DNA of 64,000 bases from Spirodela intermedia (lineage: Eukaryota; Streptophyta; Magnoliopsida; Alismatales; Araceae): positions 4,980,001 through 5,044,000 of the forward strand of contig LR746271.1 of NCBI GenBank assembly GCA_902729315.2, given 5' to 3'. The notes below the pieces were generated by a model that was not told the DNA's origin, did not search any database, and saw only the letters and a program-made list of their open reading frames with translations. Below are positions 1 to 36,429 of the stretch, in pieces. Made by a program: the position numbers and the translations under genes. The first letter of the stretch is position 1. Each line of letters opens with the position of its first letter.

Positions 1-230
1 GGAAGGCGGAGGCGAAGTAGGAGGAGAGGTGGGGGTTACACGAGGCGGTGGAGGAGAGGAAGGCGGAGGCGAAGTAGGAGGAGAGGTGGGGGTTACACGA
101 GGCGGTGGAGGAGAGGAAGGCGGAGGCGGAGTAGGAGGAGAGGTGGGGGTTACAGGAGGCGGTGGAGGAGAGGAAGGCGGAGGCGGAGTAGGAGGAGAGG
201 TGGGGGTTACAGGAGGCGGTGAAGGAGAGG
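1..230. repeat. 57-bp minisatellite, about 4 copies, inside the proline-rich coding region
   Basis: Copies begin at 1, 58, 115 and 172. Copies 1 and 2 are identical over most of their length; 3 and 4 differ from them at a few bases (for example GGCGAAG versus GGCGGAG, TACACG versus TACAGG). The period is a multiple of three, so copy number changes would not break the reading frame of the overlapping minus-strand gene. Confidence 0.93.
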
Positions 231-309
231 GGGGCTGGGCTGAGGGGGTGGTGGCGAGAACAGCGATGACGAGGAACAGAGAGAGAAGACGGAGGCCTGA
301 GGTGGCCAT
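1..309 (-). CDS. Secreted proline-rich (extensin-like) protein, N-terminal part, cut by window edge
   Basis: Reading the minus strand from the ATG at 309-307 gives an open frame running off the window at base 1 (103 codons). It begins with a classical signal peptide: MATSGLRLLSLFLVIAVLA, then TTPSA and a likely cleavage before QPP. From about residue 26 it becomes almost pure Pro/Ser/Thr/Val, with a 19-residue unit of the type PPPPPVTPTSPPTPPPPSS repeated about four times. Ser-Pro and Thr-Pro runs of this kind are typical substrates for proline hydroxylation and O-glycosylation in plant cell-wall proteins (extensins, arabinogalactan-like and hybrid proline-rich proteins). There is no Tyr cross-link motif and no SPPPP extensin repeat in the visible part, and the C-terminal domain that would decide the family is outside the window. 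The start is supported by the signal peptide directly after it and a TATA-like box about 185 bp upstream. The secreted proline-rich call is firm; the exact family is not. Confidence 0.72.
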   Translation of the reverse strand, partial: MATSGLRLLSLFLVIAVLATTPSAQPPSPSPPPVTPTSPPTPPPPSSPPPPPVTPTSPPTPPPPSSPPPPRVTPTSPPTSPPPSSPPPPRVTPTSPPTSPPPS

Positions 310-492
310 CTCCTTCTTCTCCTTCTGCCTCGGCTGCCGCTGGCCAAGTTCAGAACTCTCCTTCCTTGAGAAGGAAAGGAGGAGGAGCAGAGGGAGAGGG
401 AAAGGAAGAAGCTCTCTGGAGTTCAAGTCCTCTCTTTGTCTCTGCTCCTCTGAGGGAGAACCCTGCAAAACCCGAGGTGGCGAAGCACTCGG

Positions 493-500
493 TATTTAAA
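493..500 (-). promoter_or_regulatory. TATA-like box of the proline-rich gene
   Basis: On the minus strand this reads TTTAAATA, flanked by GC-rich sequence. It sits 184 bp upstream of the ATG at 309, which allows a pyrimidine/purine-rich 5' leader. Position and composition are the only support. Confidence 0.4.
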
Positions 501-552
501 GGGCCCCGCAGGCAGCAGGAAAGACGAGAGGAAGGTCGCCTCCGGAAGAAAG

Positions 553-607
553 TTGAACCTTCTCTCTCTCTTCTCTATATCTCGCTATTGCTCTCGCTCT
601 CTCTTTC

Positions 608-646
<39 letters not shown>

Positions 647-802
647 GTCTTGCGCCCTCTCGCTCTCTCTCTCTCCCTCTTTCCTGTCTTGCGCTCTCTC
701 CCACTCTCTTTCGCTCTCTATTTCTCTCTTTCTCTCTCTCCCTCTTTCTCTCTCTCTCGCTATTGCTTTCTCCCTCTCACTCTCTCTCTCTCTCTCCCCT
801 CT
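553..802. repeat. CT/GA-rich microsatellite
   Basis: About 250 bp of (CT)n with interruptions such as CTCG, TTTCTC and CCCTCT. It lies upstream of the proline-rich gene, where it reads as (GA)n on the gene's strand. Overlapping open frames made of Leu/Ser only are by-products of the repeat. Confidence 0.93.
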
Positions 803-3095
803 AAAACAGCAAAATCATCATAAATAATAATTATTAAAACGCCGCTAATCTGAGGAGTTTCAACAAAGTTGCCCCTCTCTTTAATGTGCCTACGACTCAG
901 ATTACTCTTCAAGTTTCTTCACCCGCACGATTTCCCGGCGCTATGATGTTAATATTTCTCCCGACCGTCCTATTCAAGACTAATTCTCCGAATACTGGTC
1001 AACGGGTCAGTGTCCTATTTCTGTTTTCAGAGAAAAAAGTTATCCTTTCTACTGACTGAACCCTGAAACGCTCTCAGTCAACGATCATCTCGGTTCTCTC
1101 TGCCCGTAAGTTTTACGATTACTTATCCAAAAACCCAAAGGAAATCAATACTTAGAATCTGACCCTCTCTGGTTATCGTCTTATGTCGTCTTCAAGGAAA
1201 TCCAAGCTGAAACACATCCACAGGACATTACCACAAGATAGTTATGCTGCGATTGTCTATAATTAAAAATATAAATCTCAAACCGGTAAAATTAAAACTT
1301 TAATCCTCAATGCCGATGGCTGCCTAATTCACGCGGTTCTTTAAAGAGCAGGGCTGCCACGTGTCATCTAGGAAGCTATCCAACTGTGGGGCCGAGGATC
1401 GATCGCCTTCTCCAGTGACCTGATCGACCGGTTTTTTGGGCCGCAGCTCTCATATTTATTATTTGGAGAATTTTCTTGGCGGAAAATTAAAAGGGGGGAA
1501 CCCTACTGAAAGCTATCCACGACCTCACCTCACTGTGTGGGAGAGGCCGTGCAACGGACGGACGGATCATCCAGGCGCTTCTCTCATCTTCGTCCCTCAG
1601 GACGCCACCTGTACTGGTGCATGTTGACCGAACCTACGTGATTTTCACTTCCCACCAATGCGTCCCAGTCAGCAGTCGAGCTGGAGCCCACCTGGCGGAC
1701 GTGTACACAGGCGACTGGGGGCACTTGACTGGATCAAACGAAATTATGCGACTTGAGAGAAGCGAAGAGAAGCGACAGTTGTCATTCTCCGGGATTTAAT
1801 TATGAGATAACACAACTCCATTAACCCCGTTTAAGGATGGTCAGCTCGGAAATTTCCACCTTCTTGAGCAGCTGCCATGTGGAATCCATCACTTTCTCGT
1901 TGACCCGGCCCAAACCTGAGTCAATCAGGTTCGAGCTGACCCAGTCATGTGAATCCTGTTTTCAACCCTCTATTGGGTTGTATAAAAACTCAACATATGA
2001 ACCCTCACCTGAAACACTTAGTGCCCATAGAAAATCAATCAATCGCTTATACTATTTTAATGTGGGTATGAAAACAACCCAACTATTCTAATTGAGCACT
2101 AGATGACTTTGGGTTGAATGCTTTGCTAAGTTGGGTTTTGGCAATTAGCGATGTGTGCAACTTTGTAAAAAAGATTATACTCTGATGCAAAAGGAGACTG
2201 ATAGTGGTATGCAGCGAGTTGATCTTACATCACTCAACACACCACATACCAAGCTCATTTGATCTTGCGGCTCTCAAAGCATCACGATACCAAGAACTTA
2301 AGTCTTCACACATATCACTATTAGGGATATAAAGATAATAATTGATTATTATTTGGTAAAATAGACATATCAATTATCTTTAAAATCCCGATGGTAGTCG
2401 TAAATACAACAATCTATTCTTCCTTCCTTTGTGTGATCGATGTCTCTAGTGATTGGCAAAGCTCATTCCTTCCTCCCTTGACTATACTCAAGGCCTCCAA
2501 TAACGGTGACAACATGTTCGACCCCTCTTCTGGCAAAACTCTCTAACAAGCAACATAGTGCTTTCGGACAATACTTCTATGATTTTCAACATGGTAGACA
2601 CATTTAGATGAAACCAAGCCACTACATCAGTGTCTCTAATTGCCTAGGAGGTAGACTAAACTTGGGCAATGATTTATTTCTTACTTTCAACATTTACTTA
2701 CTTGTTCTTGTGATTTATTTATATTTTACAATAAGTTATTATCATTTCATACACATTTCAATTGAAATGAGTAGAACTAATTTAAAACTTGATGAATGAT
2801 CTTCGTTCTTCTTCTGAATCCTCTGAAACTCATATAAGATTAAGCTAATATCATTTTCAACTTGTTTTCTATTAAGTTTTATTGTCAAATCTCGATGTAT
2901 TCTTGTTCTTAGCATTCTGCAAATGATGAGTATTTTTCTATTTTCGAGCATGAAATCACCGAGATTAATGATTGATTAATGAGCATTCAACAATTAAAAT
3001 AAGTTAGAGACATTCACGACTGACCTCATGTCATGTGTGTGAATACTCAAGCACACATTCATATGAGAAAATAGGTTGATCATATTTCTTTTTTT
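803..3095. other. Intergenic; no gene recognised
   Basis: Unique-looking, increasingly AT-rich DNA upstream of the minus-strand proline-rich gene. Short open frames here show no recognisable protein and no coding bias. One G-box core (CACGTG at 1358-1363, within GCCACGTGTC) is present; it matches the ABRE/bZIP and bHLH binding consensus but could be chance. I see no transposon termini, RNA gene or conserved exon. Confidence 0.5.
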
Positions 3096-3535
3096 TTATT
3101 TTCTTCTTATTCCTCTCTCTCCCTCTCTCATGAGACCTCTCTTCTCTCTCCATCTCCTATGAGATCTCTCTCTTCCTCTTCTTTTTGCAAGAGATCTCAT
3201 CTCTTCTCTCTCTCATGAGAGCTCTCTCTCCTCTTCTATCTTTTTCTCTCTTTCACAAGAGATCTCATCCCTTCTCTCTCCTGTGAGAGCTCTCTCTCCT
3301 CTTCTATCTTTTTCTCCCTTTCATGAGAGATCTCATCCCTTCTCTCTCTCATGGGAGCTCTCTCTCCTCTTCTATCTTTTTCTCCCTTTCACAAGAGATC
3401 TCATCCCTTCTCTCTCTTGTGGGAGCTCTCTCTCCTCTCTCTTTTTCTCCCTTCCATGAGAGATCTCATCCCTTCTCTCTCTCGTGAGAGCTCTCTCTTC
3501 TCTCTCTTTTCCTTCTTCCTTTTTTTCACTTCCCT
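3096..3535. repeat. CT-rich minisatellite, period about 68 bp
   Basis: The recognisable unit starts with TTTTTCTCCCTTTCA, continues with AGAGATCTCATCCCTTCTC and ends with GAGCTCTCTCTCCTCTTCTA. Good copies start near 3241, 3309, 3377 and 3442 (the last shortened), with degenerate copies back to about 3110. Each copy carries AGAGATCTC and GAGCTC palindromes. Confidence 0.85.
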
Positions 3536-3844: not shown

Positions 3845-4529
3845 AAATGTTGGATGATAGTCGCTGGAGATCAAAAACTCATTATTTTTTGCTCTGTCGA
3901 GTGACAACTATTGGAGATAGATTCATCAACTCACCTCATTGATTTTTAAACTTTGTAAAAAGATCTAAATATTGTCAACATTGTCTTTGTCAAAAGAGAG
4001 CCTTTGAGGCTATAGATATCACTCACTGATCTTTTTGAACATAGAATTTAAGCGATCCTTGTCGTAAAGTTAGAAGTTAATCTTTTCTAATTTAAACTTA
4101 ATATATGTGATTTCAAGTTTCAAAAATGTTCTCTATTTAATTATGATTCTTATCACTTTTAAAGATCTTAATTTAACCAATTTAATTGTTTTTAATAGTT
4201 TACGTAAGAATCACTAGATGGAACTCTATTTCTACCTTATTAACGTTTGTTAGGGTGTTGACATCATTTTGATGTTTGCACCCAAATTTCCCTTTCTCAC
4301 AAATTTTTAATAACAAAATTGTATGCTTTATGAAAAAGTCTAAAATATTACCATGTATTATCCCACATCCTTGTGATTGATATGAAAATTTCCTATTATT
4401 TTTGAATTTTTTATAAAATTAGAATTGATTTATTTTTTTTGAAATATTTTAAAAAAATTTAAAATAAAATTTTTAGTTTTATATATTTTAAATTTTTGTG
4501 ATTTATTATACAATGATTAGGTCATGTCA
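3845..4529 (+). mobile_element. 3' part of an LTR of the gag-only gypsy family (plus orientation)
   Basis: This aligns with the second half of the family LTR seen complete at 33656-35313 and 56669-58226. It shows the stretches GAGTGACAACTATTGGAGA, the CTTTGTCAAAAGAGAGCCTTTGAGG block and the terminal block GATTTATTATACAATGATTAGG ending in TCATGTCA at 4529. The 5' half is missing, and many C-to-T and G-to-A differences indicate an old copy. It faces the minus-strand copy starting at 4554, so the two 3' ends are head to head across a 24-bp spacer. Confidence 0.7.
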
Positions 4530-4553
4530 TGAAACAAAAATATGCAACCTTTG

Positions 4554-6251
4554 TGACATGACTTAATCATTGTAGAATAAATCATGTAAATTTAAAATTT
4601 ATAAACCTAAGAAATAATAATTTTTAGATTTTTAAAATATTTCAAATCAAATAAATCAATTATAATTCAATAAAAGGTCTCAAAAATAATAGGAAATTCC
4701 CAATTCAGTTGTAATGACGTAAAATAATACAATTACTATGAAAAAAAATCTTAGAAGAATATAATTTTTTATGATTTTTAAACTAAATAATAAATATAAA
4801 ATATATTTAAAAATTCACAAAAAAAAGAAATAAGGGTCAAGACATCATGATGATGTCAGCAGTCTGATGAATGGGAATCAAGTAGAAACATAGGGTCTTC
4901 TTAGATAAGGACAACATTGGTAATATCTAGGTGTTCTTAAAAATTAAAAATTAATGAAGTGGGTTGGTGAATTATCATCAGTAACTATCACTTAGTAGAG
5001 CAGAGAAATGGTAACTTTGTGGACCTTTGATAATTATGACCTAATAGAAATAACTTGAATGAAGTAGGGTGCATCTTAAAGAGCTTCATTCTCAAGTTTG
5101 CACAAAAAGAGGAGGCTTTTTGTCACATCTGATTTGCTCTCAAGAGATGACAACTCATCTTTTGATAGATTATCCTCTTTTTGACAATAGTTTTTTTGTT
5201 GATCAATTAAAGATGATTTACTTGATAGACTCATGATTCTTTTATCTAGAATCATTTAGTAATTTTAGTAATGATGCTCTGAAAATTACATTGATGAGAT
5301 TTTCACTAATGATTGAGTGATTCTAACATCTTAATAATTTACCAATAATCTATAAGAAAATTATGATTTAATCAGATAAAAATACGAGTTTTTACTCTAG
5401 TAAGATTCAAACCTTTGTGGGTTGCCTACTTATATGAGATAAAGTGAAATAAGTATATGAATACCTTTATAACATGATGTCATAAGAGCATCTCATTCTC
5501 ATAATAAGAAGTATTTTAGGTATTAAAATTATTAAAAGCTTTCAAAAGGTTATGATGTCGGCTTAGTCTTACATCAATTTTTTTTTGACTTTTGAGGTGT
5601 ATATATAATAACACAAGACTTTGTCATCAATGAGCCCCTCTCTCGCATGTGTACGACCACTCCTTTCCTCACACCTAGTTGGTCACTAGTGATGTGGAAG
5701 GGGAGTGACATACATGTGCTTATTGGTCCTTAGCTACTTGAGCCCCCTAATAAGTCTTCATTATCATGAGTTAATAATTAGTAAATAATATATTTTTAGT
5801 CTTAACTCCTGATAAATAGACTTATATTTATGTTAAGGTATGAAAAGTAGTTTTTAGTTGATTAACAAGAATTTTTGGGTAATTATGTGATTTTCTACGA
5901 ATTTATATGATTTTTATAATCTTATTTTTAAGATAAATAAAGAAAAAAAAAATATATAGCACCCCTTACTCGCAGCTTTGCCTGAGTATGCTTTTGACCT
6001 ACTTGCAGGCCCACTTGGCTAGTGGGTCCACCCTTTTTCCTATATTTTTATTTTATTTTATTTTTCTTTATTTATCTCAAAAATATGATTATAAAAATTT
6101 ACATAAATTCACATAATTAGCCAAAAAATCATATTAACTAAATGAAAACTATTTTTTATAATTTAATATAAATATAAGTCTATTTATCATGAGTTAAGGC
6201 TTAAAATATATTATTAATTAATTATTAACTCATGATAATAAAAATTTATCA
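4554..6251 (-). mobile_element. 3' LTR of a minus-strand gag-only gypsy element
   Basis: In minus orientation it starts TGATAAATTTTTATTATCATG at 6251, directly after a degenerate polypurine tract, and ends ...CATGTCA at 4554. The body matches the family LTR but lacks roughly 250 bp of the central GC-rich part near 4900. It is interrupted by a short plus-strand LTR fragment at 5748-5961. Its internal region continues at 6252-6410 and, beyond a nested insertion, at 10513-12553. Confidence 0.78.
5748..5961 (+). mobile_element. 214-bp LTR-start fragment nested in the minus-strand LTR
   Basis: It begins TAATAAGTCTTCATTATCATG (the family start TGATAAG with G to A) and runs through LTR positions 1 to about 214, ending ATATAGCA. 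It is bounded by CCCCC (5743-5747) and CCCCT (5962-5966), which look like a slightly mutated 5-bp duplication. Since it lies opposite to its host LTR, 5748-5945 and about 6020-6251 form an inverted repeat with arms near 200 bp. It may be a short LTR variant or a nested solo LTR with an internal deletion. Confidence 0.6.
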
Positions 6252-6415
6252 CACCTCCTAACTTAAATCATTGTTAGTCCTTTAGTAAAAAAATTAATAA
6301 AATTAATGAAGATTCAAAATTTTCAAACATCATCTTTCAATATGTAAAAATATCATTAAAAATGATGTAATTTTAGACATTTTGGAGTCTTATATCAAGT
6401 ATTTAAGAATGATAT
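6252..6415 (-). mobile_element. 3'-terminal internal region and polypurine tract of the minus-strand element
   Basis: On the minus strand it matches 18910-19071 of the plus-strand copy (ATTCTTAAATA, then ACTAACAATGATTTAAG) and ends in a degenerate polypurine tract AAGTTAGGAGGTG just before the LTR start. GATAT at 6411-6415 is the target duplication of the nested insertion 6416-10507; the same internal sequence resumes at 10513. Confidence 0.75.
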
Positions 6416-6912
6416 TGACGTGACTCAGTTGTTGTATATTAAATCACGCAAATTTAAAATTTATAAAACTAGAAAATACGAATTTTCGGATATTTAGAAG
6501 TATTTCAAAATAAATATATCAATTATAATTCAATACAAATCCCAAAAATAGTGGTAATTTTCCAGGTCGATCACAGGGATGTAATATAATATCTGGTAAT
6601 TATTCAGAATTTTTCTCAATGAGTACGATTTTCTTACAAATTTTATACTAGGAAATAAAAAGGAAATATATTTAAAATTCACAAAAAAAGAGGAAATAAG
6701 GGTGCGGACGTCAGGATGACATCAGCGCCCGGCGAACGCAAATCAGGCAGAAACAGAGTTCCGCCCGGCGATTCTTACGTAGGCGATTACAGACGACTCA
6801 ATTAATCAAATTAAGATCTATAAAAGCTGGAAGAATCGTAGTTGAACGAAGTATAGTTTGGTAAATAAAAATCAACAAAGTATCACTAAATGAAGCGTAA
6901 ATTAAATTGAAA

Positions 6913-7230
6913 GCAGGAAAACAGAGTTCCGGCGTCGTGACGGCGATGCGTCGGCGATGCACTGGAATCTTGAGCGTTCGGGAGGATCGTCGTGCAGTGT
7001 CCACGGCCTCGAAGGCTCTCCTTGGACAAAGACGACGTGGGCAATCTCTAGATAAAGCAGGAAAACAGAGTTCCGGCGTCGCGACGGCAACGCGTCGGCG
7101 ATGCACCGGAATCCTGAGCGTTCGGGAGGGTCGTCGTGTAATGTCCACGGCCTCGAAGGCTCTCCTTGGACAAAGACGACGTGGGCAATCTCTAGATAAA
7201 GCAGGAAAACAGAGTTCCGGCGTCGCGACG
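6913..7230. repeat. 144-bp tandem duplication inside the nested LTR
   Basis: The unit starts GCAGGAAAACAGAGTTCCGG at 6913, 7057 and 7201 (two full units and a 30-bp third). It covers the GC- and CpG-rich part of the LTR, which is single copy in the LTRs at 13876, 30215, 33656 and 56669. The period is divisible by three, so spurious open frames run through it on both strands. Confidence 0.9.
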
Positions 7231-7346
7231 GAACTCTTGTTTTATTTTCTTTTTGCCGATTAGAAAAAGGGAACGAAAAGAAGCACGGCAAGGACTGGAG
7301 CATCCTAAAGGAGGGTAATAGTTACTAACTTTTTCCCTCGAATTTA

Positions 7347-9851
7347 TTGATTTTTATGCATGGTAGAAGATCCTTGCATCCAAGGCTAGAAAATCCTTTC
7401 ATTATTTCATTCAAAAATAAAAATCCGAAAGAAAAATTAATTTTGATGGATCTTGAAGGAAGTACAGGTCAAACTGAGAACAATCCTATGGCCATGAAAA
7501 ATCATTATATCCCTGATTCATTTCAAAGAGCATCTAATATTAGAGTCCCATTAGCACCCACTGTTAAATTCGAAATAAATCCAAGAATTTTTCAAATGCT
7601 CCCTAATTTTCATGGATTGCCTTTAGAGGAACCTCATCAGCACTTAGAAAAATTTCATATGGTCTGTGATTTAGTTAATCTCCATCAAGTTACACCGGAA
7701 ATTATTAAGATGAAATTATTCCCTCATACACTTAGGGACAAAGCTAGTCATTGGCTATCCACATTAGATAGAGAATTAACTAGTTGGAAAGATATAGAAC
7801 AGGCCTTTCTTCGAAAATTTTATCCCTTAGGAAAAATTCAAAATATGAGAAAACATATATGGAGTTTTTCTCAAAGACTAGGAGAAACTTTGCATGAGAC
7901 ATGGGAAAAATTCAAGGATTTACTTAGAAAGTGTCCTCATCATGCTATACCCAAGTGGCAGCTCAATAGAATTTTTTATGATGGATTATTAGAACAACAT
8001 AGAAATATGGTTGATTCTATATGTGGAGGAGCTTTTATGGAGAAAACTCCTGATGAGATTTACAATCTTTATGAGAATTTAAGTGAAAATTCTAGAGATC
8101 AAGCCTCTTTTGAATTATATGACAGGGATAAGAAGAGAGGAATTTATGAATTGCATCATGATGATGATTCTAAACTTAGAAATGAGGTTAATCAGATTAA
8201 TCAAAGATTAGAAAAAATTAATTTACTTATTGATAATATTAGAAAGCCTTTTAACCCTCAACTTAATTCGAATAGTACATGTCCTATGTATGGTGAAAAT
8301 GATTATTCTGAACTTCAATGTTATAATTTAGATCAATCATTTCACCCTATGCAAGAACAAGTGCAAGTAGCTCACGGTTTTCATAGAAATAGGGAAAATT
8401 TTTCAAATTCTTATAATCCTAATTGGAGGAATAATTTTTCATGGAGAGACCCAAATAATATTCAAAATCCAGAAGCACTTAGACCCAATTCAAACTCTGA
8501 ATTTCGTCCAAAACAAGAAAATAGATTTCAGAAAAATCAGCCCTCTCAAACCCAACCTGATGCTATGGAAATGATGCAGCAAATGAGCCAAATGATGCAA
8601 CAAACTATGAATCAAATGATGCTTCATCAGAAACAAATTATAGAGGCTCTTGAGAATAAGAGAGAAGAGGGACAGCTACCTCGTCAGCCCATAGAAAATT
8701 CAGAAAACTGTCCAACAGTAAGATTTCAGCAAGAAGAGTCTAGCTGGATAAATTTAGAAAAAAACCCACGAAATGAAAATGTTAGGACAGTGAATATATT
8801 GAGTGAGAATATTTTACCTGAACCTTATTTTCAATTATTAGAAGAAATTGATGATCCATTAGAAGTAAATGAGAATATTAAGGCCAAGAATGTAGTAGTA
8901 GAAAGTTTGAATAAAATCATTTATTGCTCACAATTGATGAATGAATATAGTGAGGATGATGAGGAGAAAGAACCCTTAGATGAAGAAACAGCAACTGATC
9001 ATAGAAAAATCATCCAAATTTTAGTAGAAGGGAGTAAGGACAGAAATGAAGAAAAATATATTTCAAGTGAGGAAAAATCAACTGATTTGGGAGATGTAGG
9101 AGACGAAATTAATGAATCTAATCATAATTTTGCAGCCATGGATGTTGATTGTGAGGATGATGATGTATATCATATACCAAAATTTAAAGATAGCTCTTGG
9201 GAAGATGAAGAATTTGATGAGTTGAGAAACGAAAAGCTAGAAAAAGAATTGATTCAACTAATGGGAACAAGCGAAAATAATAGATATGAATATAGAGATA
9301 ATTTTGGAGGAGAAAATTTTAATTTTACTGAATTCATTAGATCTGAGATTAAAGAAGACAATCCTTCCATCCTTCAAAACCCACAGCCCATTAGAATTAT
9401 TTCTAACCTTGAAATATTTCACTCCTCACAAATTGAACAAATATGTATGGAAGATAAAATGGAGCAGGGGAAGATTATGCAGATAAAAGAAGACATTAAG
9501 AAATGGGTGAGTGGAAGAATTAGAGATACCAATTTAGATGAAAAAATTCTAGATTGGGCAAGAGCTAATCTGAAAATTATATGGCCTGATCACATTTTAT
9601 GGTTTATTAATAGAAAGTATTTATTAATGAATGAGAGCCTAACAAAACAAGATAGAAATAAGGAAAGATTCTTTTCAAAATGGAAATATTATTTTTGGGA
9701 AAATTTTGTTAATTTTCATTTTGTTTTGGCTGAAAGTATGTCAAGGTATATATATGAAGTATATGAATTTATGCTAAATCTGAAAAAGAATATCATAAAA
9801 CTTACCTTGGGATACAAATATATTTTGATGGCCATAGATCAGCTTATATGA
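7347..9851 (+). CDS. gag: Gag protein of an Athila/Tat-like gypsy element, intact gag-only ORF
   Basis: This 834-codon frame encodes a plant gypsy capsid (retrotransposon gag family, Pfam PF03732). The PF03732-like core lies at about residues 80-230: FHGLPLEEPHQHLEKF, LRDKASHWLSTL, FLRKFYPLGK, LHETWEKFKDLLRKCPHHA, IFYDGL and MVDSICGGAF. This motif order is typical of Athila/Tat gags. The CCHC knuckle expected near residue 312 is degenerate (CPMYGENDYSELQC), although the following YNPNWRNNFSW block is kept. From about residue 490 the protein is acidic and Glu/Asp/Asn-rich with no protease, RT, RNase H or integrase motif, and no pol follows. The natural start may be the ATG at 7446 (MDLEGSTGQ) rather than 7347. 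The product would form particles assembled with pol supplied in trans. Absence of stops contrasts with the degraded copies at 15780 and 12553. Confidence 0.85.
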   Translation: MIFMHGRRSLHPRLENPFIISFKNKNPKEKLILMDLEGSTGQTENNPMAMKNHYIPDSFQRASNIRVPLAPTVKFEINPRIFQMLPNFHGLPLEEPHQHLEKFHMVCDLVNLHQVTPEIIKMKLFPHTLRDKASHWLSTLDRELTSWKDIEQAFLRKFYPLGKIQNMRKHIWSFSQRLGETLHETWEKFKDLLRKCPHHAIPKWQLNRIFYDGLLEQHRNMVDSICGGAFMEKTPDEIYNLYENLSENSRDQASFELYDRDKKRGIYELHHDDDSKLRNEVNQINQRLEKINLLIDNIRKPFNPQLNSNSTCPMYGENDYSELQCYNLDQSFHPMQEQVQVAHGFHRNRENFSNSYNPNWRNNFSWRDPNNIQNPEALRPNSNSEFRPKQENRFQKNQPSQTQPDAMEMMQQMSQMMQQTMNQMMLHQKQIIEALENKREEGQLPRQPIENSENCPTVRFQQEESSWINLEKNPRNENVRTVNILSENILPEPYFQLLEEIDDPLEVNENIKAKNVVVESLNKIIYCSQLMNEYSEDDEEKEPLDEETATDHRKIIQILVEGSKDRNEEKYISSEEKSTDLGDVGDEINESNHNFAAMDVDCEDDDVYHIPKFKDSSWEDEEFDELRNEKLEKELIQLMGTSENNRYEYRDNFGGENFNFTEFIRSEIKEDNPSILQNPQPIRIISNLEIFHSSQIEQICMEDKMEQGKIMQIKEDIKKWVSGRIRDTNLDEKILDWARANLKIIWPDHILWFINRKYLLMNESLTKQDRNKERFFSKWKYYFWENFVNFHFVLAESMSRYIYEVYEFMLNLKKNIIKLTLGYKYILMAIDQLI

Positions 9852-10159
9852 TATAAGAGCTGTCCAGCTGGAGACATTAAATTCAGCGCTGCATGGGAGG
9901 CAACCCATGGTTTTTATTTCATTTTGTTTGATCTCTATTTTTCTTAGAATTTCGCAGTACTTGTTTCTGTGTTTGTTTTTCTTTCGAAAAAGTGCAGGAG
10001 GAGGAGTGTAAGATGAAGTGGAAAATTAAAAACAAGGTTGAGGTGATGTCTTTCAGAGCTTTATCATTTATGACAATATTTTTAATGCTTAACTTTGCAT
10101 ATATGCATGCTTTACTTGAAAATTATATTTTCTGCATATTCTGTTTCGATTTTTTGTGT

Positions 10160-10196
10160 CATTGGGGACAATGTCATTTTTAAGTTGGGGGGAAGT
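10160..10196 (+). promoter_or_regulatory. Internal polypurine-tract-like motif downstream of gag
   Basis: ATTGGGGACAATGTCATT followed by TAAGTTGGGGGGAAG. The same motif recurs in the second copy near 17813-17846. It resembles the polypurine tract at 19059-19071 but lies over 1 kb upstream of the expected 3' LTR position. Confidence 0.5.
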
Positions 10197-10512
10197 ATTC
10201 ATTATTAATTTATGCTGTAGGACGATTAAGAACATGTGTTTGCATTTTATTCAACTTAGAACAGCAACTAAAAAAATAAAAAAAAATCGCCGAATTCGGA
10301 AAAACTGCAACATCTATTTTCTGGTTTTTTATCAGGAACAACAGACTGTAAAAATCGTATAAAATCACATAATTACCCAAAAATTCACGTTAATCAACTG
10401 AAAACCACTTTTCATGCTTTAACACAAATATAAGTCTATTTATCATGAGTTAAGGCTAAAACTATATTATTTACTAATTATTAACTCATGATAATGAAGA
10501 CTTATCAGATAT

Positions 10513-12553
10513 CAAACACTTAAATCTTTAAGCACTCCTTAGAATAACAATCTAGACTTCACTTCTTTTATTTATGTTTTTTTCACTTCTTCACTTATAT
10601 ATATAATTCATAAGATGTTTTAATTATCAATATTTATCTGAGAATAATATTGATCCTATATTTCTCTATTTTCATGGCTTGATTTTTAAAGTTTGTAATG
10701 TATTTCTTCTATTTTGTTTATAGTGGATAAGTAATTTTTCTTGTAGATAAATTTCAATAATAAGAATGAAGTCTCACACCCTCCATGTGTACTCTTCATT
10801 TTCAAGGCTATCGTATTATCCACTTATTTTGAAGCATTTTTTTTCTATAGACAATTTTCGACGATGAGAATGATGTCTCACACCTTCCATATGTACTCTT
10901 TATTTTTAGATTTTTCACATTAAATTTTTTTCTAAATTATGAAATAAGTGATTTCTCTTCACAAGTCCTATAGATTAGGGTGTAAAAGTTTCAATTAAAT
11001 TTAAATGATCAAATAAAATTTCATATCAAGTGAATACTATCCATCAAGATCATGAAGTAAAAATATTTAAAATCAAATTCATGTTATCTATCATGTATCC
11101 ATGTAGTTTTCTAACATTTCATGCTACTAAATCATTCTTCTACTTCAATAATAGTCATCCTAATATCTTTTGATATCAACCAATCTAATTGATTTAATTT
11201 TTCATGCATACAATATGATATAAGAAATTTGTAAATTAAATAATTTCAATAGTTCTATTTTTTGTTTTCAATTTTATTTTCAGCAAGAATGAATTTGTCA
11301 AAAATAAATCAAAACTATCTTCTTTATAGCTGTAATTTTTAAATTTTAGTAATATATGCTTAGGAGATTATAATTTGATGAAAAAGTCTCTAAAATTTCA
11401 AATTTTGGACTGTTTTTTCTGTTTTTTTTGACAATCTGTAAATTATTTTCTATTGTTCTTGATAGAAAACCTAAAAATAGGTGTTATAGTTTTTCTATTT
11501 TTTTTTTTAGTTTCTCTTATAGGTGAGCATGAAAACGAATGCAAACACATGTTCTTAATCATTCTACAACAAAAATTAAGAATTAATACTTCAGCCCCCA
11601 AATTAAAAGTAATATTATCCTTAATGATATAGAAAAATCGAGACAAAATATACAAAAAATATAATTTTCAAGTGAAGTATGCATATATGCAAAGTCAAAT
11701 AGTAAGTGTTTTTTAGAAAGGATAAATTTCAGAAAGACATCACCTCAACTTCGTTTTTAATTTTCTACTTTATCTTACACTACTCTTGTACTTTTATTCA
11801 AAAAAATAAAAATAGAACATAATTAATGAAATAAAAATGATGAGTTACCTCTCATGCAATATTGAATCTAAAGTCTTCAACTAGACAACTCTTAGATCAT
11901 ATAAGATGATCTATTGCCATCAAAATATACTTGTATCTCAAGGTAAGTTTCACGATATTCTTTTTCAGATTTAGAATAAGTTAATGTACTTCATATATAT
12001 ACATTGAGATACTTTTAGCCAAAACAAAATAAAAATTAACAACAATTTTTCATAAATAAGATTTTCATTTTGAAAGAACTTCTCCGCATTTTTTTCTTTT
12101 TTTTAAGGCTCACATTCATCAGTAAATATTTTTTATTAATGCACCATAAAATGTGATCCATAATTCTAACAATTTTTCATCTAAAATGATATATCTAATT
12201 CCTCCACTCACTCATTTCTTAGTGCATTCTTTTATCTACATAATCTTTCCTTGCTCTATTTTATCTTCTCTACATATTTGTTCAATTTGAAAGGAGTGAA
12301 ATATTTCAAATTTAGACTTAATTCTAATAGGATGTGGGTTTTGAAGGATGAAAGAATTGTCTAATTCATTAAAATTCAAATTTTCTCCTAAAAAATTATC
12401 CTTATATTAATATTTATTATTTTTATTTCTCTCCATTAGTTGAATTAGTTCTTTTTCTAGATTTTTATTTCTTGAATTGTGAAATTCTACATCTTCCCAA
12501 GAGCTATCTTTGAATTTTTGTATATGATATGTATCATCATCATCATATTCTTA
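10513..12553 (-). mobile_element. Internal region of the minus-strand gag-only element, with gag remnant
   Basis: Read on the minus strand from 12553 it matches the C-terminal gag region of the intact copy (GATAGCTCTTGGGAAGATG, then the ILDWARANL region in degraded form). It continues through the post-gag motif and the 3' tail up to 10513. The frame carries many stops and frameshifts. The tail holds the duplicated TCTCACACC(C/T)TCCAT block at about 10771-10915. The 5' part of gag, the primer-binding site and the 5' LTR are missing: homology stops at about 12553 and plus-oriented LTR sequence follows. Confidence 0.72.
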
Positions 12554-12555
12554 AA

Positions 12556-12632
12556 AATTCAAAATTTAAAAATTTCTAGTTTCATAAATTTTAAGCTTAT
12601 GTGATTTATTATACAATGATTAGGTCATGTCA
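12556..12632 (+). mobile_element. Terminal 77 bp of a family LTR (plus orientation)
   Basis: It ends GATTTATTATACAATGATTAGG...TCATGTCA at 12632, as does the fragment ending at 4529. The following 20 bp (AACAAAAAAATGCAACATTGG) also resemble those after 4529, so about 95 bp is shared by both borders of the minus-strand element. Confidence 0.65.
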
Positions 12633-12637
12633 TGTAA

Positions 12638-13190
12638 CAAAAAAATGCAACATTGGTGAACTTAGGTCCACATGTTTTCATGAAAGTATTAGGTCTAATT
12701 ATTATTACTCTTATGGGATCATTTAATATGCTAAGGTTCCATTAATGTTCTAAATTAACCACCAAGTCATTCAAAAAGCTTTCAACATAAAAAGGAAATA
12801 TTTTAACTCATAGTTAAAAAATGTAAAATCTTTATGTAGGAAAATAAAAAAACTTAGGTAGTAGACATGCTACGTGCCAACTAAAAACCAATCTTGCCCA
12901 TCTTGGGTCAACCTATTTTCATTGAATATGTTAAGGTTTGATTAATGTTTAAAATGAGCCATCATATGACTTGTAAAACATTCAGCAATAAATGAGATTT
13001 TTTTTAATTCCAAGTGAAAAGAATACATAATCTATATATTTACAAAAATAAAATCTCCCATACCACAAGATACGTGCCCAATAAACAAGCAACCTTGATT
13101 ATCTACAGAGCACATTTTTTCATGAAAGGATTCAATCTAATTAGTATTATTCTTATGTGATTATTTAATATGGGGAGGTTTCAATATCTC
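12638..13190. repeat. Degenerate tandem repeat, period about 200-240 bp, three copies
   Basis: Shared blocks are TACGTGCC(A/C)A...AAC...AACC or GCAAC, followed by (C/A)ATTTTTTCATGAAAG and TTAATATG..AAGGTT. Blocks recur near 12670, 12910 and 13108. Divergence is high, so borders are approximate. No coding potential is seen. Confidence 0.5.
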
Positions 13191-29985: not shown

Positions 29986-30214
29986 ACTTATATTTATGTT
30001 AAAGTGTGGAAAATGATTTTTAGTTGATTAATGTGAATTTTTAAGTAATTATGTGATTTTATACGAATTTATATGATGTTTTTAGTCTTACTTTTGAAAT
30101 AAATGAGGAAAAAGAAATAAAAATAAAAATCTACTAAAATATGGGGGGACCCGCCAACTAGTTGGGCCTGCAAGTGAGTCGGAAGCACAATCAGGGAGGA
30201 GTTACAAGTACGAG
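29986..30214 (+). mobile_element. 3' LTR piece 2 of the 13876-33205 element
   Basis: It starts at LTR position 73 (ACTTATATTTATG) and runs to the AGGGG target at about position 300, where the inner solo LTR is inserted. LTR positions 40-72 are missing between 19110 and 29986. Confidence 0.75.
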
Positions 30215-31791
30215 TGATAAGTCTTCATTATCATGAGTTAATAATGAGTTAATAATGAGTAAATAATATAGTTTCTTTTAGCCTTAACTCATGATAAATA
30301 GAATTAGATTTATATTAAAGTGTGAAAAGTGGTTTTCAATTGATTAATGTGAATTTTTAGGTAATTATGTGATTTAATACGAATTTATATGATTTTTATA
30401 ATCTTACTTTTGAGATAAATAAAGAAAAATAAATAAAAATAAAAATAAAACAAAATGGGGGGAACCCACCAGCCAACTAGGCCCGCAAGCGGGTCAAAAG
30501 AACAGTCAAAGAGTAGCCACAAGTAGGGGCTCAAGCAGCTTAGACCGATAGGGGCACGTGTGTGCCACCCTCCTTTCACGTCACTGGTGGCCAGGCGGCT
30601 GTGGGGCAAGGAGTAGTCGTACATGCACGAGAAAGGGACTTGATCAGAAATATATTATTATTATATATTCACTAGACACTTCATCACACAACTGATGTGG
30701 GACTAAACCCACATCACTGTCCAAAGAAAAGGCGGGCAACTAGCTTGGGTTTAAATCCTCTTAGAGCTAAAATTCATATTTTTTATCTGATTATCGCAGA
30801 TTTCCTACAGATTGTCGATGAAGGATTAAGCAACCATAATTGCTTAATCATCGGTAAAAATCTCATCAACGTGATTCGCGGAGCATTGTTACTAAAATTG
30901 TTAAACGATTGATGATAAAAAGATCACGAATCCATTGAGTAAAGCATCTCCGATTGATCGACAAACAAGCCGTCGTTAGGAAGAAGATGACCTGCTAGGA
31001 GATGAGTGGCCACCTCTTGCTGCGCGGAGCCTCCTCTTGCTGTGCGGACCTGAGGATGAAGCTCCCTAACACATGCCTCACCTCTATCCAGCTCCTCTCC
31101 GTCGAGTGACAGTCGTTGGAGAGCCGCAAAGTCGTTGTTTTTCTGCTTCGCCAGGTCACAGCAGTCGGAGATGATTCGACGACCCATTTCATTGATCTCT
31201 AGACTTCGCAAGGAGATTTAAAGATTGCCCACATTGTCTTTGTCCAAGAAGAGCTTTCGAGGCCATAGACACTACACGATGATCCTCCCGAATGCTCAAG
31301 ATTCCAATGCATCACTAACGCATTGCCGCCACAATTTGTATTCAATTAAATCTTAATTGAATACAATTTTAAATCTTAAATCTTAATTACAGATCTTAAT
31401 TTTATCAATTAAATCGTCTATAATCGCTTACGTAAGAATCACCAGGTGGAACCCTATTTTTACCCGATTTGTATTCACTGGGCGTTGACGTCATCTTGAT
31501 GTCCACACCCTTATTTTCTTTTTTTGTGAATTTTCAATATATTTCCTTTTCATTTTTTAGTATAAAATTCATAGAAAATAATATTCTTTGAGGAAAATTC
31601 TGAATAATTACTAGATATTATATTACATCCCTATGATCGACCTAGAAAAGTACTATTATTTTTGAAAGTTTTATTGAATTAGACTTGATATATTTGTTCA
31701 AAAATACTTCTAAATATCTAAAAATTCATATTTTCTAGTTTTATAAATTTTAAATTTACGTGATTTACTATACAACAACTAAGTTGTGTCA
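30215..31791 (+). mobile_element. Solo LTR nested inside an LTR of the same family
   Basis: Complete from TGATAAGTC to GTTGTGTCA, 1577 bp. Flanks are ACGAG (30210-30214) and AAGGG (31792-31796). Other copies read AGGGG here, so both can be derived from one AGGGG duplication. The outer LTR continues as GGGCTTGACGGCTAGGACC, with no internal element sequence. Confidence 0.82.
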
Positions 31792-33205
31792 AAGGGCTTG
31801 ACGGCTAGGACCGATAGGGGCACATGTACACCATTCCCTTTCCATGTCACCGGTGGTCAACCGATTGTGGGGTAATGAGTATTTGTACACACACGAGAAA
31901 AAGACTTGCTTACAAATGTAATATTACTATATATTCATCCGAAACTTCGACACATAAGTGATGTGGGACTAAACTCGTGTCACACCTTCCCCAAAAAAGG
32001 TTTGATATTTTGAATACATAAAATACCTCTTATTTATGATAAGGATATATCATGATGATGTCATTTGATAAGGGCATTAGAGTACTTATGTCAATCTCTC
32101 TCATATAGGTGGGCAACCACTATAGGTTCAAATCCTCCTAGAGCTAAACTCATATTTTTTATCTGATTATCGTAACTTTCTTACAGATCTTCAGTGAAGG
32201 ATTAAGCCGCCAGAATCACTAAATCATTGGCGAAAATCTCGTCAACATAATTCACAAAGCATTGTTACTAAAATTGTTGAACGATTCATAATAAAAGGAT
32301 CGTGAATCCATCGAGTAAAGCATCCCTAATTGATTGAGAACAAGTTGTCCTCTTGAGAGCATACCGAATGCTATGAAGAGCCTTCTCTTGCTGTGTGGAC
32401 GTGAAGATGAAGCTTCTTAACATGCACCTCACCTCCATCCAACTCTTCTCCATTGGGTGACAGTCGCTAGAGAGCTACAAAGTCATTATTTTTTCCACTC
32501 CACTAAGTGACAGTCGTCAATGACAATTCGACTACCCATTTCATTGATCTCTAGACTTCGCAAGGAGATCTAAAGATTACTCATGTCATCCTTGTCCAAA
32601 GAGAACCTTCAAAGCCATAGATATTGCATGACAATCCTCATGAATGCTTAAGATTCTAGTACATTGCCGACGCATCACCACCATGACGTTGGACCTTTGT
32701 TTTCCTATTTTTTAACTTAATTTCTACTTCATTTAGTGATAATTTGTGTGATTTAAATTTACCAAGATATACTTCGTTCCATTACGATTCTTTCAACTTT
32801 TATAGATCTTAATTTAATCAATTAAATTGTCAATAATCACTTACGTAAAAATCATCAGGTGAAACTTTATTTTTGCCTAATTCACATTCACCAGGTGCTA
32901 ACGTCATCCTAACATACACCCCCTTATTTCTATTTTTCATAAATTTTAAATATATTTAATTTTTATTTCCTAATATAAAATTTATAGAAAATAATATTCT
33001 TTGAGGAAAATTTTGAATAAATTACCCAATATTATATTACATCCCTATAATTGACTTGAAAAATTACCACTATTTTTGAAAGTTTTATTGAATTATAATT
33101 AATATATTTGTTTAGAAATACTTCTAAATATTTGAAATTTTGTATTTTTTAGTTTTATAAATTTTAAATTTACGTGATTTACTATACATCAACTAAGTCA
33201 CGTCA
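31792..33205 (+). mobile_element. 3' LTR piece 3 of the 13876-33205 element
   Basis: It continues the LTR from the AGGGG site to the terminal AAGTCACGTCA at 33205 and is followed by CATTG, matching the duplication before 13876. Confidence 0.8.
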
Positions 33206-33655
33206 CATTGGATTTTGAGAGATTTTGTCATTTAGTAAAGACTTTTAAATGTTGAAGGCAATGCCTAGAAGCAAGCATACTCTAAGTTGGCTATCAATAG
33301 ATATTTTCATCTAGAATCAATAAACTAGACTTCTCTAGAGAGACAATCTCAATCAGCCTTTGACTTATTATACATGAAACATAGCTAGATGCTAGTTGTG
33401 ACTAAATTTAATATCTGACCAAGCTAATATATTCTAAAATTTTGTATGGGCCACAAAAGTATGGCACAACTTTTACTACAATAGATAGTTGAAAGATTAC
33501 TAGATGTTAGGCCATAAATGCAAGAAGACAATATTGTTGATGCCAAATTTAATACTCTTCCATTTCTTATCCATGTAGCTCTTCATCTAGGCATGTGCTT
33601 GAGCTAAGTGACATTAGAATTACTTTAAGGTGAAATCTCAATCTAAATTGATAAT

Positions 33656-35313
33656 TGATGTCTTCATTATCATGAGTTAATAATTAGTAAATAATATAGT
33701 TTTAGCCTTAAATCATGATAAATAGACTTATATTTGTGTTAAAGTATGGAAAGTGGTTTTCAATGGATTAACCTGAATTTTTGGCTAATTATGTGATTTT
33801 TTATGAATTTATATAATTTTTATAGTCTTATTTTTTAGATAAATAAAGAAAATAAAATTAAAATAAAAATATAGCAAAATGAGGGAAACCCACCAGCCAA
33901 TTGGGCTCACAAGTGGGTCGGAAGCGTAGTCAGGGAGGAGTTGTGAGCAGGGGCTTGAGTGGTTAGGACCGATGAGGACATGTGTGTGCCACTCCCCTTC
34001 TATGTCACCGGTGGCTAATTGACTGTGGGGCAAGGAGTAATTATACACAAGGGAGAAAGAGACTTACTTGTAAATATAATATTATTATATATTTACTCAA
34101 AATTTCAACACACAAATAATGTGGGACTAAACCTTTTATTTATAATAGAGATATAACATGACGACATCGTTTGATAAAGTCATCAGAGTACTTATTTCAA
34201 TCTCTTATGTAGGAGGACAACTAGCAAAGGTTCTAATTCTCTTAGAGTCAAAACTCATATTTTTATCTGATTATCACAACTTTCTTCATTGTTGATGAAG
34301 GATTAAGTCTCCAAAATCAAGATCATCGGTAAAAATCTTATCAACGTAATTCGCAAAACATTGTTACTAAAACTGTTGAATGATTTGTAATAATAGGATT
34401 GCAAATTCATTGAGTAAATTATCTCTAATTGATCGATGAATAAGTTATCATTAAGAAGAAGACAATCTACCGAGAGACAAGTCATTACCTCTTGAGAGTA
34501 TACCAGATGCAATGAAGAGCCTCCTCTTATTGTGCAAACTTGAGGATTAAATTCACTAACACACATCCCACCTTCATCTAGTTCTTCTCTGTCGGGTGAC
34601 AACTGTTGGAGAGCTACAAAGTCACTATTTTTCCACTCCACCAGATAACAGCCGTTGGAGATGATTCGACAACCCATTTCATTGATTTTAGACTTTGCAA
34701 GGAGATCTAGAGATTGCTCACATTGTCCTTGTCCAAAGAGAGCCTTCAAGGCTGTAGACAATACATGACGATCCTCTCAAACGCTTAGGATTTTGGTATA
34801 TCATCAACACATCACCATTGTGACGCTAAAACTCTATTTTTTTACTTTCAAGTAATTTAAATTTAAATTTACCAAGCTATATTTTGTTCAATTACAATTT
34901 TTTTTACTTTTATAAATTTTAATTTGATCAATTAAATTATCTATAATCACTTAAATAAGAATTATCAAGTAGAACTCTATTTCTGTCTGATTTACATTCT
35001 CCAAGTGTTGACATCATCTTAACGTCTGGACCCTTATTTTCCTTTTTTGTAAATTTTAAATATATTTTATTTTTATTTCTTAGTATAAAATTTATAAAAA
35101 ATAGTATTCTCTGAAGAAAGTTTTAAATAATTACCTGAAATTTTATTACATCCCTATGATCAATTGAAAAAATTATTACTATTTTTGAAAGTTTTTGTTG
35201 AATTATAATTGACATATTTGTTCAGAAATACTTCTAAATATCTAAAAATTCATATTTTTTAATTTTATAAATTTTAAATTTGTGTGATTTATTATACAAC
35301 GAGTAAGTCACAT
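33656..35313 (+). mobile_element. Solo LTR of the gag-only family (TSD ATAAT)
   Basis: It starts TGATGTCTTCATTATCATG at 33656 and ends AAGTCACATCA at 35313 (1658 bp). ATAAT is present on both sides (33651-33655 and 35314-35318). Antisense integrase sequence continues on either side, so this is a clean insertion reduced to a solo LTR by LTR-LTR recombination. Confidence 0.92.
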
Positions 35314-36429
35314 CAATAATCAACTTTACCTACTCATGCCAAATTATGTTTATGTTAGAGGAGAGCTAGGGTATCTTATTTGTAGATGATTTTCAAAGGG
35401 TGTGGTTTTGGTTAATGAACTAAAATTAATATTGAACAAGTATTTTGTCCAATTATAAAACCACAAGTGAAACATCTTAGGCAAGTCTTGAGGCTATAAC
35501 TTAAAATTTTTTGTTGGATACCAAATTATGAATGATTAAAGCTTATTAATTGAAAGAGGGTCCAAATGATTCTCTTGCATAATCAACTTAGAATTGACTA
35601 AACAAGGTCATGATAATTCTATGGTTTATAGAGTGAGAAAATCTGATCATCAAGATAATGCATCAGCTGCCCTATTCTCAACTCTCACTTTGTGATTGAT
35701 CTCAAATTTGAAGCTAATAATTTTACAGAGCCATTTTTGGTAGTGTCAATGAATCTTCTATTGGTCTACCCTAAAGTTAAGGGGACATTGATTTTAAAAA
35801 TTATTATAAATTTATTTTCTAGCAAATACTATCATTTTAATGTGGTGAGGACAATTTTTATCAGCTCTTTTTCATAGTCAATCTTGTTTTTGACATTAGG
35901 AGCATAAACTTAATAGAAGAAAGTGATGATTTTTTTACTTTACATTTGCACCGCCCCTTACTCCTTTGTTGAAAGCACTAACTTTGAGTTTGAAAGATTA
36001 GAAAAATTCTATAAGAGCTAATATTGACATGTGATGAGAGAATTTTTTAGCAAGTAGAAGGTTTCTACTTCTGGATTCTATTTGAAGATAAGCATTTGAA
36101 GAGTTGGGTTAGCAGCCATGCAATAAACTCAAAGTTTTTGATGAAACCTTGTTCACATTTTTAGGTTAAAATAAAACACGTCAAATTCAATAATTATATT
36201 GCCCTTAAAAATCTATAAATTAGCTTTGAAATGTTGGTGTGTTCAAGTTGATCCTCTAGGAAAATAGTAAAATTCTTATTACCAAATTCTATTATGAAAT
36301 ACTTTTTGAGCAAAATGATTGATTTTAAGAAAGACTATGGAAAATAATTGTATCTAATTCTCAATTGTTGCTATTACATTTTCATTAAAAAGAAGACAAC
36401 ACTAACAAAATGTTTAAAGAAGGAGAAGG

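Follow-up and report, generated by a model that had tools for sequence, protein, structure and literature searches.

A chimeric LTR retrotransposon insertion in Spirodela intermedia with its internal region inverted inside a single split LTR

How can a retrotransposon insertion carry its internal region backwards relative to its own long terminal repeat (LTR) ends and still be bordered by a perfect target-site duplication (TSD)? This question is raised by positions 6416-10507 of a 64,000-nucleotide stretch of Spirodela intermedia DNA (contig LR746271.1, positions 4,980,001 to 5,044,000; G000:C8:4980001-5044000 in our numbering), which is hereafter called the window. The window belongs to an assembly of 136 Mb in 32 contigs, 18 of which, each of 3.8-13.4 Mb, hold about 135.7 of the 136.5 Mb. 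The architecture first described for 6416-10507 is real, and the whole segment (4,092 bp) is one single insertion. It is a one-off aberrant insertion, and a second, independent insertion of the same build was found on another contig. Strand switching or end-joining of complementary DNA (cDNA) before integration is the origin that we favour, ahead of a deletion-inversion-deletion in place; it is not proven, and we give it about an even chance of being correct.

At its outer borders, the window copy has the TG...CA ends and the short TSD of an integrase-type LTR insertion. The ends, read on the minus strand, are TGATAAGTC at 10507 and CACGTCA at 6416, and alignment to the full-length copy L062 verified the minus orientation that the initial annotation had assigned to both. 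Two identical copies of GATAT lie at 6411-6415 and 10508-10512, as reported there. When the insertion and one TSD copy were taken out, the joined flanks (396 bp) gave a single alignment to relatives in their internal 3' region (81% to each of L062 and L063, with 8 gaps per comparison), which bears out the earlier statement that the host is uninterrupted. Given that this empty site reads through as an internal 3' region of the family, the insertion lies within an older member of its own family.

The two LTR parts next to these ends are unequal. The LTR 3' part, 816 bp on the minus strand at 6416-7231, aligns as one piece to the LTR L072 with 97.4% identity. Positions 6416-7197 are 97% identical to L062, and the 34 bp after them belong to an additional 144-bp tandem unit; 2.2 units of the LTR tandem array remain at 6910-7231 (minus strand). 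The LTR break on this side is thus 34 bp into a further unit, a point absent from the earlier description. Such a further unit is present in some LTRs of the genome, and single alignments to L071, L072 and L073 cover all 816 bp, with identities of 96.3-97.4%. The LTR 5' part, which includes the TGATAAGTC end, is on the minus strand at 10343-10507, corresponds to LTR positions 1-165 and is 100% identical to L062; this 165-bp part is identical in many copies.

Between the two LTR parts is an internal-region fragment of 3,117 bp at 7233-10349, which is on the plus strand and therefore inverted relative to the LTR ends. It corresponds to internal positions 87 to ~3214 of L062, with 97.9% identity, and contains an open gag frame on the plus strand at 7347-9851 (834 codons from a mechanical TTG start; Retrotrans_gag, PF03732, E = 2.7e-19). 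The earlier claim of plus-oriented internal DNA with intact gag was confirmed in orientation and content, while the limits of 7231-10350 given with it were refined to 7233-10349. Read against L062, the chimera runs from LTR 1-165 through the inverted internal region (~3214-87) into the LTR again, from within the further tandem unit to the end. The comparison with L062 also upholds the reported loss of the LTR centre and the primer-binding region: the chimera lacks the middle of the LTR and the primer-binding site (PBS) along with the initial 86 nt of the internal region. It further lacks the terminal 1.1 kb of that region, polypurine tract (PPT) included, a loss that had passed unremarked. The window copy is thus not an intact LTR retrotransposon, as it has one split LTR and neither PBS nor PPT.

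The two inner joints differ from each other. At joint 1, the single base at 7232 belongs to neither side, and there is no microhomology when L062 is used as a stand-in for the parent. At joint 2, the LTR side and the internal side have in common the 7-bp sequence AGACTGT at 10343-10349; the chance of an overlap of at least 7 bp at a random L062 LTR/internal joint is 0.0007 per joint. Neither joint has an LTR terminus (TG or CA), and this bears directly on the two routes that the initial annotation had proposed, namely self-integration of cDNA before insertion and inversion between inverted LTR copies. Self-integration should join an LTR terminus to an inner site, and the candidate of an autointegration product was rejected on this ground. 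Homologous inversion requires long shared sequence, and the joints share 7 and 0 bp. Although self-integration is described as producing inverted circles of Ty elements (PMC4751563), we consider either route hardly credible for the window copy.

The parent family is represented by two full-length reference copies, L062 (minus strand) and L063 (plus strand), whose borders carry the PBS-like TGGCGCCGTTGCCGGGGA, which we take to be of the tRNA-Asp type, and a G-rich polypurine tract. L062 has an LTR of 1,764 bp that contains two 144-bp tandem units, and its internal region is 4,320 bp long. The two LTRs of a copy are 97.7% alike in L062 and 99.1% alike in L063 over 1,600 bp, the second L063 LTR ending at 1595 in the stretch compared. 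The internal region of L063 has a single long open reading frame (ORF) with gag only, flanked by PBS-like and PPT-like stretches; with two LTRs, PBS, PPT and gag alone, this parent type has the composition of the gag-only full-length elements defined as TR-GAG. A longer, pol-bearing form (L114) has ORFs with PF03732, PF00078 and PF17919/PF17917, and then PF17921 and PF00665. Its order of gag, protease, reverse transcriptase (RT), RNase H and integrase is that of Ty3/gypsy elements, with protease models scoring below the curated cut-off only. Judged from these predicted domains, the parent is a Ty3/gypsy-type plant LTR retrotransposon that is gag-only and has a pol-bearing form. Like the non-autonomous elements of TR-GAG type with a pol-bearing Ty3/gypsy partner, the parent family has LTRs, the PBS-like TGGCGCCGTTGCCGGGGA and a gag frame only. 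The window copy differs from that type in lacking PBS, PPT and a whole LTR, and in having its core inverted inside the LTR.

Two further observations concern this family. The number of 144-bp tandem units in the LTR (positions 982-1269 of L062) differs between copies (L026, L028 and L071-L073). The family has also inserted repeatedly into its own LTRs in opposite orientation (L004-L007, L015, L022, L036, L046, L047 and L054), with three loci hit at LTR positions 1160-1193 and single loci at ~248, 439-447, 775-779 and 1020.

Is the window copy a member of a mobile subfamily with the same junctions, as had been suggested should other loci share them? The check then proposed, probes of about 150 bp over both junctions, was made with probes of 151 and 161 bp; among the best 40 candidates per probe (of 1578 and 2553), the only full match was the window itself. 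The two chimeras have four joint patterns between them, and every one of these occurs a single time in the 136-Mb assembly when up to 3 mismatches are allowed. As the joints are unique in the assembly, the window copy does not represent a mobile subfamily.

We also surveyed other copies of the family, namely those closest to the probes (the best 40 of 584 and of 593 matches for internal 5' ends, and the best 40 of 562 for 3' ends), most of which were seen at one end only. The 57 internal 5' ends comprise all 39 other matches of the first search and 18 of the 39 of the second; among the remaining 21 of the second, 20 were already in the first set and one, L038, has a normal 5' joint. About 300 bp upstream of the internal 5' end was inspected for LTR orientation in the first 39 copies, and 38 of these have a properly oriented LTR 3' end, the remaining one being L107. 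Among the further 18, 17 are normal and one, L156, has a shortened border. Thus, 55 of the 57 other 5' ends are normal, with the second chimera and L156 as the remainder, and all 39 other internal 3' ends are normal. In L156 (G000:C11:6588210-6588570), LTR and internal region have the same orientation, and ~0.5 kb of the LTR/internal border is apparently gone, as judged from the spacing.

In a joint census of the fetched loci, the window, loci cut from it and seven loci around the chimeras' joints (L001, L002, L031, L061 and L150-L152) were left out. The census gave 123 same-orientation joints, which include overlapping loci and are therefore not an element count, and 15 opposite-orientation LTR-in-LTR joint readings, some of them overlapping, three of which are the flanks of the second chimera. 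The only opposite-orientation joint between LTR and internal region besides those of the second chimera is in L053, with an LTR terminus at the joint.

These counts bear on a history of nesting, in which a minus-strand solo LTR would have received a plus-strand full-length element and both LTR/LTR palindromes would then have been deleted. The opposite LTR-in-LTR joints just counted are common in the family and speak for such a history. So does a one-sided opposite joint of the old host element at 12545/12552, because of which we rate the history somewhat higher. However, it needs two separate deletions per case, and no one-sided inverted joint was found among the 57 5' ends and 39 3' ends surveyed. 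Moreover, host-side identities of nested pairs are 83-94% (except for 98% in L015 and 97% in a short piece in L022), whereas the outer LTR of the window copy looks as young as its core. Given that LTR loss is two-sided in both chimeras, a single event accounts for it more readily than a nest that suffered two separate deletions, and we hold nesting followed by deletions to be improbable.

The relative age of the parts was compared by means of private substitutions. With 8 comparators, the core has 21 in 3,075 sites, while the LTR parts have a mean of 5.0 in 485 sites and 0 in 161 sites. A common age of the window core and LTR parts is compatible with these counts, although not proven by them. 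Derivation of core and LTR from one parent was examined through their nearest relatives: the LTR has its best match at 98.2% over 494 bp or 98.1% over 816 bp, and the core, among long matches, at 97.9%, values that speak neither for nor against a common parent.

The second chimera was located via L107, where an internal region on the minus strand meets a plus-strand LTR end, and occupies G000:C9:4721236-4729361 (L115 637-821 and L114 1-7962). It consists of plus-strand LTR 1-1006, an inverted internal region from 4311 to 1 that includes pol, and plus-strand LTR from 1727 to the end. The TSD, GCTGT, is present on both sides, and the insertion lies in an old minus-strand LTR whose positions 924-928 are duplicated. 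The internal region retains two long ORFs, one with gag and RT domains and the other with RNaseH and integrase domains. The joint of LTR 1006 with internal 4311 is blunt, and the other joint shares the 5 bp ATTTG (chance of at least 5 bp = 0.006). Internal 4311 falls within the PPT at a distance of 9 nt from the LTR, and the opposite end of the core, internal 1-3, is at the LTR/PBS border. These core-end positions are natural discontinuities of reverse transcription and are meaningless for random breakage. As the two chimeras share the build and no joint, the build recurs and is not inherited, which suggests that such copies arise occasionally as one-off accidents of copying or repair.

The second locus also bears on whether the structure could be an assembly artefact, for which a young and highly repetitive family offers some ground. 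The perfect TSD, the empty site that reads through, the microhomology at one joint and the existence of a second such locus on a different contig, of 13.4 Mb, all argue against it, and we regard an artefact as very improbable.

The favoured origin from cDNA would involve the following steps, in which we reconstruct both a rearrangement that precedes integration and the succession of switches. Within the particle, DNA synthesis from the 5' end of the LTR would quit its template at LTR position 165 and switch, via the common AGACTGT, onto the opposite-sense internal strand at about position 3214. Synthesis would continue to internal ~87 and then return to an LTR strand at a point roughly 0.8 kb short of the LTR 3' end. 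Alternatively, end-joining of cDNA pieces could yield the same joints; retrotransposon cDNA can be processed by alternative end-joining. In either case, the product would keep one TG and one CA end in proper relation, so that integrase could insert it with a 5-bp duplication.

The principal competitor is a deletion-inversion-deletion in place, in which an ordinary full-length minus-strand element inserted and a later template switch or multi-break repair inverted internal 87-3214, while ~1.8 kb to one side of this segment and ~2.2 kb to its other side were lost (arithmetic from L062 plus one LTR unit). A single event of this kind would cover the TSD, the microhomology, the singleton joints and the two-sidedness, and deletion-flanked inversions form a named class, delINVdel (PMC5338099). 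Since the in-place route would keep the same duplication, the clean TSD, which the initial annotation took to favour an object inserted with its present ends, is not by itself compelling; the direction of that argument is nevertheless supported by the second, independent chimera. In that chimera, rearrangement in place would need chance to put one core end no more than 9 nt, and the other no more than 3 nt, from an LTR border, and it is mainly for this reason that an origin from cDNA is preferred. In addition, an inverted LTR remnant adjoining the core is absent from both the window copy and the second chimera, and the only other opposite LTR/internal joint of the census, in L053, has an LTR terminus. 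We therefore consider rearrangement in place an unlikely, though serious, alternative, and insertion as a preformed object a plausible first choice that is not proven.

Several observations weigh against the cDNA origin. The core of the window copy ends 86 nt and 1.1 kb away from the PBS and PPT borders, so that the window copy alone cannot separate cDNA switching from rearrangement in place. Damage to LTRs in place is known in the family and is in line with the in-place route: in L038, positions ~204-1480 of the 5' LTR are deleted and a filler of ~78 bp is present (L038 1627-1704), whereas L171, assigned from its position as the 3' LTR of that copy, has no filler and is undeleted over 1-795, and the damage to L038 was therefore probably sustained after insertion. 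The joint at 12545/12552 is one-sided and opposite in orientation and lies outside the survey; it weakens the argument from two-sided coupling. Two switches onto opposite-sense templates are needed. At 21, the private substitutions of the window core outnumber those of every one of its 8 comparators (2-12), and the LTR 3' part has 2 in 494 when 37 LTR comparators are used. The LTR 3' end of the second chimera is TA instead of CA, and its private substitutions are uneven, with 11.0 in 978 sites for the LTR and, for the core, 3 in 1,195 plus 38 in 1,626; this unevenness may be due either to the small number of pol-bearing comparators or to parts of different origin.

Inverted segments within inserted elements are found in other systems. 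Proviruses with inversions usually keep both LTRs, while the window copy has a single split LTR. In a study of human T-cell leukaemia virus type 1c (HTLV-1c), in which, as in the window copy, an inverted segment is present inside the provirus, inversions are given for 1.9% of the sequenced proviral genomes, a minor class that offers a precedent for the favoured reading (PMC13427564). That study also reports microhomology of 4-10 bp at 58 of 185 deletion joints, for which it offers template switching or end joining as candidate explanations (PMC13427564). The delINVdel variants resemble the window copy in having an inverted segment with deletions on both sides and differ from it in being chromosomal (PMC5338099); the window copy has both its breaks within a single element and retains an undamaged TSD.

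Autointegration circles have LTR termini at their joints, whereas the joints of the window copy are within the LTR and the internal region. The circles described for Ty contain inverted element segments as the window copy does, and are circular where the window copy is linear (PMC4751563). Among the titles and abstract openings searched, which covered few subscription papers, none describes an internal region that lies inverted within a split LTR bordered by a clean duplication.

The window copy is probably an inert dead end, because PBS, PPT and a complete LTR are all missing, and the object itself is probably inert whichever origin applies. The build is a rare, recurrent and probably inert variant. 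If born from cDNA, such copies would be a fossil record of reverse-transcription errors in plant LTR elements, whose frequency could be counted in long-read plant genomes. They would also be a warning for annotation, given that outer LTR ends and a clean duplication would not guarantee a solo LTR or a nest in between. If rearranged in place, the window copy would be an ordinary complex structural variant. A wider proposal, which we put forward tentatively and with somewhat less than even confidence, is that plant LTR retrotransposons regularly (perhaps in 1-2% of insertions) integrate molecules with the internal region backwards in a single split LTR, through cDNA strand switching or end-joining around the plus-strand start and the second-strand transfer. 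If true, these would form a class of cDNA-born dead-end insertions, which in annotation would pass for solo LTRs, nested elements or fragments.

The older element that hosts the window copy belongs to the same family and spans 4554-12632. Its internal 3' region is on the minus strand at 6252-6413 to the left of the insertion (78%) and continues on the minus strand at 10508-12545 to the right (77%). An ordinary minus-strand LTR border is found on the left at 6251/6252. At 12545/12552, the old minus-strand internal region meets the 3' end of a plus-strand LTR, with no LTR terminus at the joint. Positions 4453-4556 and 12553-12659, which flank the old element, are 87% alike over 107 aligned bp that comprise an LTR 3' end and its flank, far longer than a TSD. 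The older element was considered as a third chimera and rejected, in view of the ordinary minus-strand LTR at 6251/6252 and the 107 bp that its right end shares with 4453-4556; we read the right end as a local duplication in an old damaged copy.

Within the left part of the older element (4554-6251), a plus-strand LTR 5' fragment of ~200 bp from near the LTR start is located at 5750-5951 inside the old minus-strand LTR, with which it forms an inverted pair. Elsewhere in the window, older plus-strand LTR pieces of the same family cluster at 29986-35315, with identities of 74-81% to L062, and short tandem arrays occur at 1-285 and 3167-3503, their periods being ~57 bp and ~68 bp.

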